From: Clostridium mediterraneense
GTDB lineage: Bacteria > Bacillota > Clostridia > Clostridiales > Clostridiaceae
Direction: 5' to 3'
Length of the DNA stretch: 44,861 nucleotides
NCBI RefSeq assembly: GCF_900091705.1
Contig: NZ_LT594785.1
Coordinates: forward strand, 751,257 to 796,117
The notes below the pieces were generated by a model. The model saw only the letters and a program-made list of their open reading frames with translations, did not search any database and was not told the DNA's origin. A program made the position numbers and the translations under genes. Below are positions 5,396-35,792 of the stretch, piece after piece (positions within the stretch are counted from its first letter, which is position 1; every line of letters begins with the position of its first letter).

Positions 5396-6526
5396 TTATG
5401 GTAAATTATTTAAGATAGAGCTATAAGAATTTATTGTTTCAAAGGCAGTATTTTTCCAATTAAATTTGGATGCTTGTATAAGACCACTTTTTATTAGTGA
5501 ATTTCTAAGTTCTGTATTTGAAGTAAGTTCTATAATTGCTTTTGATATTTCATCTATATCTGCTGGATTTACAGATATACTAGAATCTCCAACTACTTCT
5601 GGTATAGAAGTCAAATTAGATGAAATAACAGGAGTTCCAGATGCCATAGCTTCTATTGGAGGAAGTCCAAATCCTTCATAAAATGATGGGTAGACAAGCA
5701 TTAAAGCAGAGTTATAGAAAATTGGCATATGATCTGTTGGTATAAATCCAGGAAAGATTACTTTAGATTCTAAATTAAGTTCATGTACTTTAGATTTATA
5801 TAATTCATAAGAGTTTCCCTTTCTTCCTAAAACAACAAGCTTTGTAGAACTAGGTAATTTAGGCAAAGCAGTACTAAAGGCTTCTATTAATCCTAGAATA
5901 TTTTTTCTAGGGCTGAATCCACCTACATAGAGGATATAATTATCAGAAATATTATAATTCTCTTTTAGAAAGGCTTTGCAATATTTTTTATTAAGTGGTT
6001 TATATTGTTCTTCAGCAGCAAGGTAAGTAACAAATATTTTTTCTTTAGGAAATGAAAGTGTTTTATGAATATCTTCTTTAGAGTAATTAGAAACAGTTAT
6101 TATCCCATCAATATTTTTTAGAATAGAAGGTAACTGATCATTAAATATTTTTAGATAATTTTCACTAACTGTCTTAGGTAGCTTTAAAGGTATAATATCA
6201 TGAAGAGTTATTACTTTTGGGATATCTGAGTCAGAATCTAAGCCTATTCCATTCTGAGGTATATGATAGATATTGGTATTGGCATAATTTATTTTGTTAG
6301 GAGATTTTATATCTTCCCAAAAATTATTGCTTATCTTTCTATCTGAATGTTTTAAACAAAAATTCTTTTTTAATTTTAAATCCAAATTGGAGTTTTTAGA
6401 GATATAAATAGTATATTTATTAATGAAATCGACTTGATTTATGTTATTAATCAATTGATAAGTATAGTTTCCTATGCCTGTTCCTCTATACCAATTAGAG
6501 GCTCTACCATCTATTGTTATATCCAT
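5396..6526 (-). CDS. GT4-family glycosyltransferase, coat-island copy 2
   Basis: 376 residues, paralogous along its whole length to the product of 1318-2454. The shared motifs are the N-terminal WYRGTGIGNYTYQ, HIPQNGIG, TLHDIIP, TVSNYSKEDI, YVGGFSPRKN and PSFYEGFGLPPIEAMASGTPV (with the GT4 E-x7-E signature). It is a cytoplasmic GT-B fold enzyme using a nucleotide sugar; specificity is unknown. Start ATG at 6524-6526 has AAAGGA six bases upstream. It diverges from the CotS-family gene at 6631. The repeated pairing of this glycosyltransferase type with CotS genes (twice in 6 kb, in the same divergent arrangement) suggests both protein types serve one pathway in the coat, but that is inference. 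Confidence 0.85.
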   Translation of the reverse strand: MDITIDGRASNWYRGTGIGNYTYQLINNINQVDFINKYTIYISKNSNLDLKLKKNFCLKHSDRKISNNFWEDIKSPNKINYANTNIYHIPQNGIGLDSDSDIPKVITLHDIIPLKLPKTVSENYLKIFNDQLPSILKNIDGIITVSNYSKEDIHKTLSFPKEKIFVTYLAAEEQYKPLNKKYCKAFLKENYNISDNYILYVGGFSPRKNILGLIEAFSTALPKLPSSTKLVVLGRKGNSYELYKSKVHELNLESKVIFPGFIPTDHMPIFYNSALMLVYPSFYEGFGLPPIEAMASGTPVISSNLTSIPEVVGDSSISVNPADIDEISKAIIELTSNTELRNSLIKSGLIQASKFNWKNTAFETINSYSSILNNLP

Positions 6527-6630
6527 AACATATCCTTTCAGTATAGCTATATTCTATTATATTATTATTAGATAAAATTTGTTAATAAATAAAAGGACTT
6601 TAACATATAAATATACGGGGGTGAGTAATT

Positions 6631-7635
6631 ATGATGAGGGAATTTGAAATAGAAAGACAGTTTAATCTTAGAATTGAAAAGATTAAACCAAGTAAAGGAA
6701 TTTATTATTTAAATACTGACAAAGGAGAAAGATGTCTTAAAAGGATAAACTATGGGCCACAAAAATTACTTTTTGTATGTGGAGCAAAAGAACATTTAAT
6801 TAAAAATGGGTTTTCTAATGTGGATAGATATTATTTAAACATAGATAAGGAACCATATGCTTTAGTAAATGAGGACTTATATACCTTATCACAGTGGATC
6901 GAAGGAAGAGAGTGTGACTTTCATAACATAGATGAAGTTAAGCTTGCTGCAAGAAACTTAGCTTTACTTCATGAGGCTAGTAAAGGATATGACCCACCTG
7001 AAAATTCAAAACTTAAGAGTGATTTAGGAAGATGGCCACATCTTATGGATAAAAGAATTAAAGCACTTGCAAAAATGAGAGATATGGCAAGAAAAAAGAA
7101 TATGAAGCAAAACTTTGATTTAACTTATATAAAAACAGTAGATTTTTATAGGGATTTAGCTATTAGGGCTGCTAATGTTTTAAAAGAATCAGAATATGAA
7201 GCTCTTTGTGAAAAAAGTGAAATAGATAAGAACTTTTGTCACCATGATTACACATATCATAATATTATAATTGATAAAGATGAAAAATTACATGTATTAG
7301 ATTTTGATTATTGTAAGAGAGAAATTAGAGTTTTTGATATATCTAATTTTATGATAAAGGTTCTAAAGAAAGTTGATTGGGATATTAATTTTGCAAAAGA
7401 AATTATAAATTCATATAATGAAGTTTCACCTTTAGAGGATAGAGAATATAAGGTTTTATTAGCATTTTTATTATTTCCACAAAGATATTGGAGATTAGCA
7501 AATAGGCATTATTATAATGAGGTTAGCTGGGGAGCTAATACATTTACTAAGAAGATTCAAAATATAATAAATGAGCAAGATGATTATATGAAATTTATTG
7601 AAGACTTTAAACAAGAGTATGATTTAAAAGAATAG
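6631..7635 (+). CDS. CotS-family spore coat protein (kinase fold), copy 3
   Basis: 334 residues; the most canonical CotS-like protein in the window. The N-lobe spans about 1-90 (KGERCLKRINYGP carries the likely nucleotide-site Lys). The hinge TLSQWIEGRECDF is near 86-98, the catalytic loop HHDYTYHN has H204, D206 and N211, and VLDFDYC has D224 and D226. The C-terminal LLFPQRYWRLANRHYY is characteristic of the family. A strong GGGGTGAG ribosome binding site (6617-6624) precedes ATG 6631; ATG 6634 is an equally possible start. Divergent from the second glycosyltransferase gene; the ACATATAAATA at about 6603-6613 resembles a sporulation -10 element but does not fit sigma-K or sigma-E cleanly. 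A long palindromic terminator follows. Confidence 0.88.
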   Translation: MMREFEIERQFNLRIEKIKPSKGIYYLNTDKGERCLKRINYGPQKLLFVCGAKEHLIKNGFSNVDRYYLNIDKEPYALVNEDLYTLSQWIEGRECDFHNIDEVKLAARNLALLHEASKGYDPPENSKLKSDLGRWPHLMDKRIKALAKMRDMARKKNMKQNFDLTYIKTVDFYRDLAIRAANVLKESEYEALCEKSEIDKNFCHHDYTYHNIIIDKDEKLHVLDFDYCKREIRVFDISNFMIKVLKKVDWDINFAKEIINSYNEVSPLEDREYKVLLAFLLFPQRYWRLANRHYYNEVSWGANTFTKKIQNIINEQDDYMKFIEDFKQEYDLKE

Positions 7636-29750: not shown

Positions 29751-30104
29751 GTGGACAAGAAAAATAAGGAAATGATTTTAAGTATTTCTAAGGTAGACAT
29801 TATCTTAGCTATTGTTACAACTCTTATTATTTCCTTTATAGATTTTAGTTATGCAATGGCATTTTTTGTCGGAAATATAATAGCTGTTATAAATTTCACA
29901 GTTAATGCTTTAACAATTAACAGAGTTTTTAAAGGAAAAAAATCAGGGTTTATTATCCAGGCAAGCTTTATAATAAGAATGCTAATAATAATAGGTATAG
30001 CATTATTATTTAGGGCGAGCTGTGTAAACCTTATATTCTATTTAGTAGGGTTTATTTTTCATCAGTTAGCGATGTTCATTTATGCTAGAAAAGGTTTAAG
30101 CTAA
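29751..30104 (+). CDS. atpI: ATP synthase subunit I
   Basis: 117 residues with a GTG start (GGAGGT at 29740-29745 upstream). There are four hydrophobic segments (about 14-30, 34-52, 66-84 and 93-112), typical of AtpI/UncI, a small membrane protein that helps assemble the c-ring and possibly imports Mg. First gene of the atp operon in the usual position before atpB. Sequence is poorly conserved across the family, so the call rests on size, topology and position. Confidence 0.82.
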   Translation: MDKKNKEMILSISKVDIILAIVTTLIISFIDFSYAMAFFVGNIIAVINFTVNALTINRVFKGKKSGFIIQASFIIRMLIIIGIALLFRASCVNLIFYLVGFIFHQLAMFIYARKGLS

Positions 30105-30159: not shown

Positions 30160-30834
30160 ATGAATATTTTTGCACCTATGTTTACTATCAATATAGGCGG
30201 AATAGTATTACCAAGTTATTTAATCATTCAGTGGATTATTATGTTACTTATAATAATTATAGGAGCTATTGTAGCAACAGGACTGAAGATGAAACCTAGT
30301 AAGAAACAAGCGCTTGTAGAATTATTCTATGAATATGTAGAAAAAATAGTATGTGGCAATATGGGGAAAAAAGGCGCAATATTCATACCATTTGTTGGAA
30401 CATTGATGATTTACATATTATTACTAAACTATGTAGGTTTATTAGGAATGTCTCCTCCAACAAAGAATTTAAACGTTACCATCGGACTTGCATTAGCAGT
30501 GTTCTTTGTAGTTCACGGTAATGCAATTAGAGTTAATGGAATAGGAGGATACTTAAAGAGCTACGCTAGTCCTGTAGCTGGAATGTTACCTCTTAACTTA
30601 ATGGAAAGAGCAATCTTCCCAGTATCATTAGCACTACGTTTATTCGGAAATATGTTAGCTGCTTCTATAACAGTTGAGTTAATATATGAAGGACTTGCTC
30701 ATATTACTTGGGCAGCACAAATTGGACTTCCAATAATAGCTCATGGATTCTTCGATTTATTCGACGGAACAATCCAAATGATAGTGTTTGTAATGTTAAC
30801 AGTTATAAACATTAAAGTATTAGCAGAGCACTAA
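30160..30834 (+). CDS. atpB: ATP synthase F0 subunit a
   Basis: 224 residues, a polytopic membrane protein. The essential Arg is R160 in SLALRLFGNMLAASI. The C-terminal helix holds HGFFDLFDGTIQMIVFVMLTVINI, the partner of the half-channel. It forms the ion path against the c-ring. AGAGGGAGTG precedes the ATG. Length is normal for clostridia. Confidence 0.95.
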   Translation: MNIFAPMFTINIGGIVLPSYLIIQWIIMLLIIIIGAIVATGLKMKPSKKQALVELFYEYVEKIVCGNMGKKGAIFIPFVGTLMIYILLLNYVGLLGMSPPTKNLNVTIGLALAVFFVVHGNAIRVNGIGGYLKSYASPVAGMLPLNLMERAIFPVSLALRLFGNMLAASITVELIYEGLAHITWAAQIGLPIIAHGFFDLFDGTIQMIVFVMLTVINIKVLAEH

Positions 30835-30886: not shown

Positions 30887-31120
<234 letters not shown>

Positions 31121-31210: not shown

Positions 31211-31690
31211 ATGGAAATTAAATGGCAATCAATTTTAGCGGCTATAATTAACCTTGTTATTTTAGTGTTTATTTTAAGACATTTCTTCTGGGATAGAATT
31301 AAAAAAGCTATCGAAGAAAGACAAAATGCAATTAATGAAAAATTATTAAGTGCAGATAGAGCCAGAGAAGAAGCAAGTAAGTTAAAGGCTGAAAATGAAA
31401 GAATCTTAAGAGAAGCTCAAGAAGAAGGTAAGAAAATTATTGAAGCTAGAAAGAAATCAGCAGAAGAAATCTACAATAAGATAGTTGCAGATGCTCACGC
31501 AGAAGCTGAAAACTTAAAGATTAAAGCAAATGAACAAGTTAAGATAGATATTGAAAAGGCACAAGCAAACCTTAAGGAACAAGTTATTGACCTTGCAATA
31601 GTATTATCAAAGAAAGCTGTAGAAGGATCAATAGACGAAGCTAAACATAGCGCTATTATTGATGAATATATCGAGAAAGTAGGTATGTAA
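31211..31690 (+). CDS. atpF: ATP synthase F0 subunit b
   Basis: 159 residues: an N-terminal membrane helix (about 5-26), then a long charged right-handed coiled coil to the C-terminus, ending DLAIVLSKKAVEGSIDEAKHSAIIDEYIEKVGM, where it contacts delta. It is the peripheral stalk linking F0 to F1. ATG 31211 is chosen because CGGAGGG precedes it; upstream in-frame TTG/GTG codons lack a site. Full length, and its stop codon lies 1 base before the delta gene. Confidence 0.94.
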   Translation: MEIKWQSILAAIINLVILVFILRHFFWDRIKKAIEERQNAINEKLLSADRAREEASKLKAENERILREAQEEGKKIIEARKKSAEEIYNKIVADAHAEAENLKIKANEQVKIDIEKAQANLKEQVIDLAIVLSKKAVEGSIDEAKHSAIIDEYIEKVGM

Positions 31691-31691
31691 T

Positions 31692-31937
31692 ATGAATACA
31701 GCGACAAATCAAACTGTTAATGGAATTGTTAAAACAGTAGTTCCATTAACAGAAGAACAATTAACTAAATTATTAGCTAAATTAGAAGCTAAATTTAATA
31801 AGAAAATCTTATTAAAGCAAGAAATAGATAAAAGCATTATTGGTGGACTTTATATAGAAATTGACAATGAAATTATAGATGCAACTATAAGATCAAAATA
31901 CCAAGAAATGAAGGGCTTAATGCTTAATAGAGATTAA
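31692..31937 (+). CDS. atpH: Truncated ATP synthase delta subunit (C-terminal domain only)
   Basis: 81 residues, against about 175-180 for a normal delta/OSCP subunit. From G11 onward it matches the C-terminal domain: VVPLTEEQLTKLLAKLE, KKILLKQEIDKSIIGGLYIEI and IIDATIRSKYQEMKGLML. The six-helix N-terminal domain (about 100 residues), which clasps the alpha-subunit N-terminus, is absent. The ATG is 1 base after the full-length atpF stop, so no room exists for the missing part, and no frameshift is apparent. The first ten residues (MNTATNQTVN) are not delta-like. The part kept is the one that binds subunit b. Position in the operon is canonical. A functional stator would need another contact to F1. 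Confidence 0.85.
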   Translation: MNTATNQTVNGIVKTVVPLTEEQLTKLLAKLEAKFNKKILLKQEIDKSIIGGLYIEIDNEIIDATIRSKYQEMKGLMLNRD

Positions 31938-31953: not shown

Positions 31954-33462
31954 ATGGAAATTAAGACAGAAGGTTTATCTTCAGAACTTAAAGATGACGT
32001 AAAAGGTTATGAAAAGGAAATTAAGACAATAGACTCAGGAACTATAATACAAGTTGGAGACGGAGTTGCTAGAGTTGACGGGCTAAAAAGCTGTATGCAA
32101 GGAGAACTTATTGAGTTCGAAAATGGTGCAGTTGGTATGGCTCTTAACTTAGAAGAAGATAATGTTGGGGTTGTATTATTAGGATCTGAAGAAGGTTTAA
32201 GACAAGGAGCTAGAGCAAAGAGTACTGGAAGAGTAGTGGAAGTACCAGTTGGTGACGCGATACTAGGAAGAGTTGTTGATGCTCTAGGAAATCCTATTGA
32301 TGGAAAAGGTGCTATAAATAACGAAGGTTATAGACCAATAGAAACTAAAGCACCAGCAGTTCTTGAAAGAACTCCAGTTCATCAACCTATGCAAACAGGA
32401 ATCAAAGCTATAGATGCTATGATTCCAATAGGAAAAGGACAAAGAGAACTTATCATCGGTGATGCAGGTACAGGTAAAACTACTGTAACACTTGATGCGA
32501 TAATAAACCAAAAAGGTAAAAATGTTAAATGTATATATGTTGCAATTGGACAAAAACAATCAACAGTTGCTAATGTATACAACATATTAGAAGAAGCAGG
32601 AGCAATGGAATATACAACAATAGTTTCAGCATCAGCTTCAGAAGCAGCAGCTTTACAATTCATAGCACCTTATTCAGGAGTTGCTATGGCAGAACACTTC
32701 ATGTGGAAAGGTGAAGACGTATTAATAGTTTATGATGATTTATCAAAGCAAGCAGTTGCTTATAGAACATTATCATTATTATTAAGAAGATCACCAGGTA
32801 GAGAAGCTTACCCAGGGGATGTATTCTACATACATTCAAGATTACTTGAAAGAGCAGCTAAACTTTCATATGAATTAGGTGGAGGTTCAATAACAGCTTT
32901 ACCTATAATTGAAACTTTAGCAGGAGACGTATCAGCTTATGTTTCAACAAATGTTATTTCAATAACAGATGGTCAAATATTCTTAGAAAAAGGATTATTT
33001 GATGCAGGACAAAAACCAGCTGTTAACGTTGGTATTTCAGTATCAAGAGTTGGAGGAAGTGCTCAAACTAAAGGTATAAAGCAAGTTGCTAAAGGATTAA
33101 GACTTGACCTTGCACAATATAGAGAACTTGAATCATTCTCACAATTCGGAGCAGAACTTGATAAGGATACTGCTAGAAGAATTGAACAAGGTAAGAGACT
33201 TGTAGAATTATTAAAGCAACCACAATTTACACCAAGAGACCTTTCACAACAAGTATCAGCTTTATATGCTGGAGTTAACGGATACTTAGAAGATGTAAAA
33301 GTTGAAGATGTAACTAGATTCGAAAAAGAATTCTTAGAATTTATGAGTGATAATCATAGAGATATACTTGATTCAATAGATAAGGAAGAAAAACTTATTG
33401 AATCAGCTGAAGAAGACTTAAAGAAGGCAATAGTTGAATTCAAAAAAATATTTTTAAGATAA
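31954..33462 (+). CDS. atpA: ATP synthase F1 subunit alpha
   Basis: 502 residues, normal length, with [34 protein letters not shown] and the Arg-finger region intact. Two departures stand out. The Walker A is GDAGTGKTT (169-177), whereas alpha subunits normally have GDRQTGKT. The N-terminal helix that normally docks on delta (EI-x-x-I-I-K-x-Q-I pattern) reads [17 protein letters not shown]. Alpha binds nucleotide non-catalytically and supplies the Arg finger to beta. GGTGGTGAG precedes the ATG. The N-terminal change matters because the delta domain it would bind is missing. Confidence 0.96.

Positions 33463-33510: not shown

Positions 33511-35792
<2,282 letters not shown>

Follow-up and report, generated by a model that had tools for sequence, protein, structure and literature searches.

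A free-standing delta subunit reduced to its C-terminal domain in an F1Fo ATP synthase operon of Clostridium

Stator attachment in described F-type enzymes

In F-type ATP synthases, the N-terminal domain (NTD) of the delta subunit holds the F1 head, the C-terminal end of subunit b binds the delta C-terminal domain (CTD), and the gamma C-terminus points up towards the central hollow on top of F1. The ion-binding carboxylate of c, the P-loop of beta, and the arginine-finger residues of alpha matter functionally. F-type enzymes are described with a single peripheral stalk (PMC12229609). In the enzyme of Bacillus PS3, one alpha N-terminus binds the delta CTD and the other two bind the NTD, which occupies the central hollow on the three-fold axis (PMC12229609). 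Ueno et al. (2025) deleted delta residues 2–104 of the PS3 enzyme and fused the CTD to alpha, as they feared that an unfused truncated delta would yield an unstable complex (PMC12229609). The engineered enzyme is reported to carry up to three stalks and three a subunits, to have an H+/ATP ratio of 5.8 versus 3.0, and to synthesise ATP when the gradient is roughly half as large as usual; in cryo-EM, 51% of the complexes had one stalk and 15% had none, which its authors ascribe to loss during grid preparation (PMC12229609). Ueno et al. concluded that the NTD restricts the stalk number to one, named natural CTD–alpha fusions (Acidaminococcus fermentans, two UniProt entries), and predicted natural multi-stalk enzymes (PMC12229609). 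The one-stalk rule was thus broken by design in 2025, and it was a few fusions that had prompted the prediction of natural cases. A search of titles and abstract openings in open-licence PMC found no report of a free-standing natural delta consisting of the CTD only.

The short delta gene and its distribution in the genus and family

The window, a stretch of 44,861 nucleotides from the Clostridium mediterraneense genome (3.08 Mb, 5 contigs, 97.9% complete), carries an ATP synthase operon in the order atpI, a, c, b, delta, alpha, gamma, beta, and epsilon, followed by x206 and murA (Table 1). All eight F1Fo subunit types are encoded in this one operon, with delta present only as its CTD. The gene names thl, murA, adhE, spmB, ftsH, tilS, and spoIIE are presumptive, having been assigned from sequence.

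Table 1. Features of the ATP synthase operon in the window (positions are those of the window).
Feature	Position	Strand	Basis
atpI-like gene	29751..30104	+	ORF, Pfam
atpB, subunit a	30160..30834	+	ORF, Pfam
atpE, subunit c, carboxylate present (GLSEATAIY)	30902..31120	+	ORF, sequence
atpF, subunit b, 159 aa; C-terminal end aligns with relatives	31211..31690	+	ORF, Pfam, alignment
atpH, CTD-only delta subunit, 81 aa	31692..31937	+	ORF, Pfam, relatives, PDB matches
atpA, subunit alpha, 502 aa; clade on long stem branch	31954..33462	+	ORF, alignment, tree
Alpha residues 5–12, rewritten N-terminal helix, TEGLSSEL vs PEEITSII in full-delta Clostridiaceae	31966..31989	+	alignment
Alpha residues 171–172, P-loop, AG (GDAGTGKT) vs RQ (GDRQTGKT) in 46/46 full-delta alphas	32464..32469	+	alignment
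atpG, subunit gamma, 289 aa	33511..34380	+	ORF, Pfam, alignment
Gamma C-terminal tail EAMKKKKK, 8 residues beyond anchor (4 in 44/44 full-delta Clostridiaceae)	34354..34377	+	alignment
atpD, subunit beta, 462 aa	34404..35792	+	ORF, alignment
atpC, subunit epsilon, 132 aa	35810..36208	+	ORF, Pfam

The delta gene lies at the canonical position between b and alpha and, as the initial annotation had claimed, its product matches the delta CTD only. The Pfam OSCP profile PF00213 aligns residues 4–74 with profile positions 98–169 of 172 at 66.2 bits (cut-off 22.3), NCBIfam TIGR01145 covers profile positions 96–168 of 172 at 57.3 bits, below its curated cut-off of 57.5, and the protein matches 21 distinct PDB sequences (E ≤ 0.01), the best at chain residues 120–184. 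That the NTD is absent, and not merely displaced into another frame, is borne out as well: the TAA of atpF ends at 31690 and is followed by a single T and the delta ATG at 31692, and because atpF (counted from its ATG at 31211) and atpA are as long as in relatives, neither neighbouring gene conceals the NTD. Delta and alpha are separate ORFs without a covalent CTD–alpha fusion, and no extra gene was seen within the operon, x206 being found in two full-delta relatives too. The enzyme retains in its sequences the c carboxylate, the beta P-loop GGAGVGKT, and the alpha arginine-finger region SVSRVGG, and its epsilon keeps both Pfam domains.

The profile search (E ≤ 10) returned a single PF00213 match in this genome, so the second, standard delta gene for which the initial annotation had allowed was not found there. 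A profile of six NTDs from the genus likewise gave no match to a separate NTD gene in this genome at E ≤ 10, and it recovered its own source loci in the other six of the seven genomes at E = 1.6e-46 or better. The supply of a homologous NTD in trans is accordingly disfavoured, and with it the suggestion of the initial annotation that another protein provides the domain, as far as a recognisable NTD is concerned. This genome contains, in addition, a pair of adjacent PF00006 genes (frames of 597 and 460 aa) that probably encode an A/V-type ATPase, judging by their size and arrangement.

Two other genomes of the genus with separate assemblies, G003 and G004, encode an 81-aa delta at the same locus, residues 11–80 being 77% and 74% identical to those of the window's delta, respectively. 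Because three separate genomes share the short delta, a local assembly deletion is very unlikely, and an assembly or sequencing artefact of any kind, which would have to recur together with the alpha and gamma changes described below, has a negligible probability. Four further genomes of the genus (G001, G002, G005, and G006) have deltas of 179 aa; such full deltas in close relatives, which the initial annotation had regarded as contrary evidence, instead date the loss to this lineage. In the family search, 176 of 194 genomes matched the window's delta, and among the matches listed, intact short deltas were only the three of this genus. A 127-aa candidate in G161 was rejected, since it arises from a frame break into 65 and 127 aa. 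Between adhE and spmB, G003 and G004 have a further operon, whose delta is 179 aa long. A counterpart of this full-delta operon in the window's genome was considered and rejected: there, adhE and spmB adjoin across a 1,039-bp gap, in which no operon remnant is recognisable, the tblastn matches having E values of 1.2 or worse. The second full-delta operon of the two relatives, the recurrence in Clostridia, and the link to the engineered multi-stalk enzyme all lay beyond the view of the initial annotation.

Changes in the F1 head and recurrence in Clostridia

The short-delta operons were compared with 46 full-delta operons of Clostridiaceae (six from the genus and 40 from other genera), giving n = 46 for alpha, 43 for beta, and 44 for gamma; the 40 family loci, as well as 20 class controls, were hand-picked from match lists and are not a random sample. 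The set includes L097 (the frame-broken delta of G161) and L096 (a 266-aa delta), takes two operons from G173, and leaves out the second operon of G001 (contig C31, delta with TAA); gamma is missing for G001 and G002, and beta for three operons.

The N-terminal helix of alpha, PEEITSII in the reference set (E7, I8, and T9 in 46/46, P5 and I12 in 45, I11 in 44), reads T(E/D)GLSSEL in all three short-delta genomes, whose alpha N-termini are 73–83% identical to one another. All three genomes depart from the reference residue at 28 of the 284 near-invariant alpha positions, including 6 of the 9 in residues 1–16 versus 22 of the 275 elsewhere. The P-loop form with RQ ([10 protein letters not shown]) occurs in all 46 reference alphas and has given way to AG in the window, and beta carries N189K (34968–34970), at a site that is invariant in the 43 compared sequences, as well as D347Q and other replacements. 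The head has thus changed more widely than at its docking site. Gamma extends 8, 9, and 15 residues beyond the anchor in the three short-delta genomes, with lysine-rich tails. If the gamma C-terminus faces the hollow here as well, the changes in three proteins meet at one place.

The loss of the NTD is not confined to this genus. In a class-level sample, 100 of 157 Clostridia genomes had a PF00213 match, and five (L104–L108) besides the window's encode a stand-alone CTD-only delta of 77–108 aa between b and alpha, confirmed by Pfam in 5/5; G201 has a full delta elsewhere in addition. In 16 of the 157 genomes (L109–L120, L127–L130), the CTD-only delta is in frame with the alpha N-terminus. The CTD of these fusions rests on Pfam, with G278 below the Pfam cut-off and G336 a longer stretch across a stop; the clostridial CTD model scored in 9/16 (for L128, in an unusual region of that model), and 3/16 were re-scanned with Pfam. 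A phylum-level sample of 139 genomes gave seven more CTD-only matches in frames of 612–659 aa, and the two that were opened, L156 and L157, are both fusions; the matches opened in this sample yielded no additional ATP synthase operon with a stand-alone CTD-only delta.

The alpha motif E[IV][STA]x[IVL][ILF][KRE] is present in 46/46 Clostridiaceae full-delta operons and 18/20 class controls, the two misses (L148 and L152) being near misses, and is found in 0/3 short-delta, 0/5 other CTD-only, and 0/16 CTD–alpha fusion operons. A gamma tail of at least 7 residues beyond the anchor occurs in none of the full-delta operons (0/44 in the family and 0/20 in the class), in 3/3 short-delta, 3/5 CTD-only, and 9/16 fused operons; 9 of the 21 operons in the latter two groups do without it. 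The association of the tail gives Fisher values of 4e-11 overall and 5e-5 for the class only, shared ancestry being ignored. Both the alpha expression and the gamma threshold were set after the data had been seen, and all of these counts take genomes as independent of ancestry. L121 and L122, in which part of the NTD remains, were counted for gamma among the fused operons, and L115 and L128, where gamma is missing or shares a frame with beta, were not; the alpha-motif counts omit L121 and L122, and L123–L126 and L131–L133 are in neither set of counts.

Several other arrangements of delta-like sequences were observed. A 290-aa delta in an ATP synthase operon (L158, 5192–6064) has one weak NTD match and two CTD matches and could hold two stalks. 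Three stand-alone delta-CTD-like proteins are encoded in L154 (6072–6554, 6677–7099, and 10513–10848) and two in L155 (7590–7988 and 8169–8627), and no other ATP synthase gene was found in either locus; G369 encodes, besides, a 188-aa delta at the head of a delta–alpha–gamma–beta–epsilon run (L159). Low-complexity sequence precedes the CTD in the 287-aa delta of L124 (55–918) and the 227-aa delta of L125 (2948–3631). A 250-aa b in an N-ATPase-like gene order (L123, 4733–5485) ends with a weak delta-CTD match (24.6 bits, residues 174–240).

The subunits of the window's enzyme have diverged at different rates. Relative to the mean mutual distance of full-delta sequences (L073 and L097 left out), the distance of the window's sequences to them is 1.65-fold for alpha, 1.49-fold for beta, 1.21-fold for gamma, and 1.13-fold for epsilon, and 0.96- to 1.13-fold for a, c, b, and the delta CTD. 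In a midpoint-rooted alpha plus beta tree, the three short-delta genomes group in a single clade (support 1.00) whose stem measures 0.31 and whose later branches measure 0.05–0.09, from which alpha and beta seem to have evolved in a burst and then at a slower pace. The CTD is 74–75% identical among short-delta genomes at 82% alpha identity, compared with a mean of 59% (range 42–80%) in 226 full-delta pairs with alpha identities of 80–84% (L097 again left out), and 80% identical at 90% alpha identity, compared with 71% (64–83%) in 10 pairs with alpha identities of 88–92%. By a crude measure computed for two pairs (G003–G004 and G000–G004, G000 being the window's genome), dN/dS is 0.10–0.18 for alpha, beta, a, and b, 0.03–0.04 for c, 0.13–0.22 for gamma, 0.23–0.53 for atpI, 0.45–0.48 for epsilon, and 0.33 and 0.68 for delta, the latter value being the largest found for any of the nine genes in its pair. 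Decay of the CTD was considered and is unsupported by protein identity, this high delta value notwithstanding; like an NTD supplied in trans, it is disfavoured. The low dN/dS over most genes indicates that the operon is still under selection.

Possible stator attachment and comparison with known systems

These observations are best explained by a working F1Fo ATP synthase with a stator clamp that is free of the delta NTD, a reading to which we assign a probability of about 0.75. The delta CTD would cap the b2 stalk as usual and dock directly on the alpha N-terminus, as it does on one of the three alphas in PS3; the alpha N-terminal helix, released from NTD binding, would have been rewritten, and the gamma C-terminus may have grown its lysine-rich tail towards the hollow once filled by the NTD. 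An empty three-fold axis would leave three equivalent sites for the CTD, and the enzyme might accommodate additional stalks and a subunits. The initial annotation had offered a different stator attachment, another protein supplying the domain, or an uncoupled complex or mainly an ATPase; the first of these gains support from the changed alpha N-terminus and gamma C-terminus and from the 16 class genomes that fuse the CTD to alpha, whereas the second fares poorly for an NTD homologue in trans. Some findings speak against an NTD-free clamp. The natural delta is unfused, and the authors of the engineered version doubted the stability of an unfused form. The RQ pair of the alpha P-loop is lost along with many other alpha and beta residues, and the head may have changed for other reasons; the alpha expression and gamma threshold are post hoc, with 9 of 21 operons lacking a long tail; in one pair, delta tops the nine genes in dN/dS (0.68, against 0.33 in the other pair); and the operons opened in the phylum-level sample of 139 genomes added no stand-alone CTD-only delta.

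An NTD-free clamp might go together with a natural multi-stalk enzyme, in which three separate delta CTDs, one per alpha, would anchor as many as three b2 stalks, with up to three a subunits. We propose this tentatively, at somewhat less than even odds. Nested in the same NTD-free clamp is a simpler arrangement, nearly as likely as several stalks, in which the supply of delta or steric hindrance at the membrane keeps a single stalk and the ion/ATP ratio is ordinary. A single stalk would fit a delta encoded by an unfused single gene, whose copies, unlike those in the fusions, need not match alpha in number, and the one-stalk and stalk-free complexes among the engineered particles would agree with it if they were not, as their authors hold, products of grid preparation (PMC12229609). 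Against it, three equivalent alpha sites would be open, and it is the NTD that, in the conclusion of Ueno et al., sets the limit (PMC12229609).

Apart from the NTD-free clamp, the enzyme could be uncoupled or a specialised ATPase whose head is weakly held and which is no tight ion pump. The long stem of alpha and beta (0.31), the altered alpha P-loop, and beta N189K would be in line with such a state, and the adjacent PF00006 genes, read as an A/V-type ATPase, could carry the essential work. However, a, c, b, and the delta CTD of the window lie at about their relatives' mutual distances, c keeps its carboxylate, and most genes of the operon have a low dN/dS; this explanation is improbable. About as doubtful, or slightly more so, is the replacement of the NTD atop F1 by an unrelated protein. 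A non-homologous stand-in would be invisible to sequence searches, and the similarity of the alpha N-terminus among the three genomes leaves room for its binding something, but no NTD homologue was found in the genome, no extra gene was seen in the operon, x206 occurring in full-delta relatives as well, and the CTD–alpha fusions suggest that an NTD-free link is used elsewhere.

If the multi-stalk form of the NTD-free clamp is true, each turn would move two to three times as many ions as usual, and a fermenter could work at a very low gradient. The source organism, which we assume from its kin to ferment, would be suited by a high ion/ATP ratio where the gradient is small. The enzyme would then represent an unfused natural form of the 2025 design, and the loss of the alpha motif would be a signature for such enzymes across Clostridia. 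Natural enzymes are now on offer for direct tests of stalk number, ion/ATP ratio, and the role of the NTD, and more of them may be sought by a simple signature, namely the absence of the NTD and of the alpha motif, often with a gamma tail.

A separate observation concerns the c subunit. Extra c genes without the carboxylate occur in L048 (G006; 6134–6352 and 6398–6631), L043 (8104–8325), and L045 (7975–8193), and the first c genes of L072 and L073 also lack it. These genes read AAGLCGATAIY, ATGLAGATSIY, or similar in place of GAGLAEATAIY, and each operon has a normal c gene too. Were such subunits mixed into a c-ring, each turn would involve fewer ion sites, with a low ion/ATP ratio and a steep gradient as the outcome, which would suit acid conditions; in that case, G003 and G004 would have a possible low-ratio enzyme alongside a possible high-ratio one. 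Near the second operon of G004, which contains the carboxylate-free c gene, lies a gene (L045, 10263–11651) that we take from its sequence to be glutamate-decarboxylase-like and that would fit acid tolerance.

The window's operon has the eight subunit types of the canonical F1Fo enzymes of E. coli and Bacillus PS3 in the same order, a–c–b–delta–alpha–gamma–beta–epsilon, but unlike theirs, its delta is without an NTD; compared with the other Clostridiaceae examined, its alpha N-terminus, alpha P-loop, and gamma C-terminus are changed. The mycobacterial b–delta fusion keeps the NTD. It resembles the window in having a rearranged delta (PMC5709465), but is fused, whereas the window has no fusion and no NTD. 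N-ATPases are likewise described without a standard delta, but with the order beta–epsilon–...–a–c–b–alpha–gamma and a longer b than the 159 aa of the window's (PMC5706428, PMC5709465), and mycoplasma F1-like enzymes, in the accounts consulted, also do without a standard delta and have a different operon. The natural CTD–alpha fusions come closer, having lost the NTD and kept the CTD, with the alpha motif absent in the 16 found here, but their CTD is fused to alpha and that of the window is not. The engineered PS3 enzyme shares with the window the removal of the delta NTD and the retention of the CTD and b; it differs in the fusion of the CTD to alpha and in an epsilon without its C-terminal domain, whereas in the window the CTD is a separate natural protein and alpha and gamma are changed. 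A kind of enzyme free of the delta NTD was already known from design and from the fusions; in the window it takes an unfused natural form.
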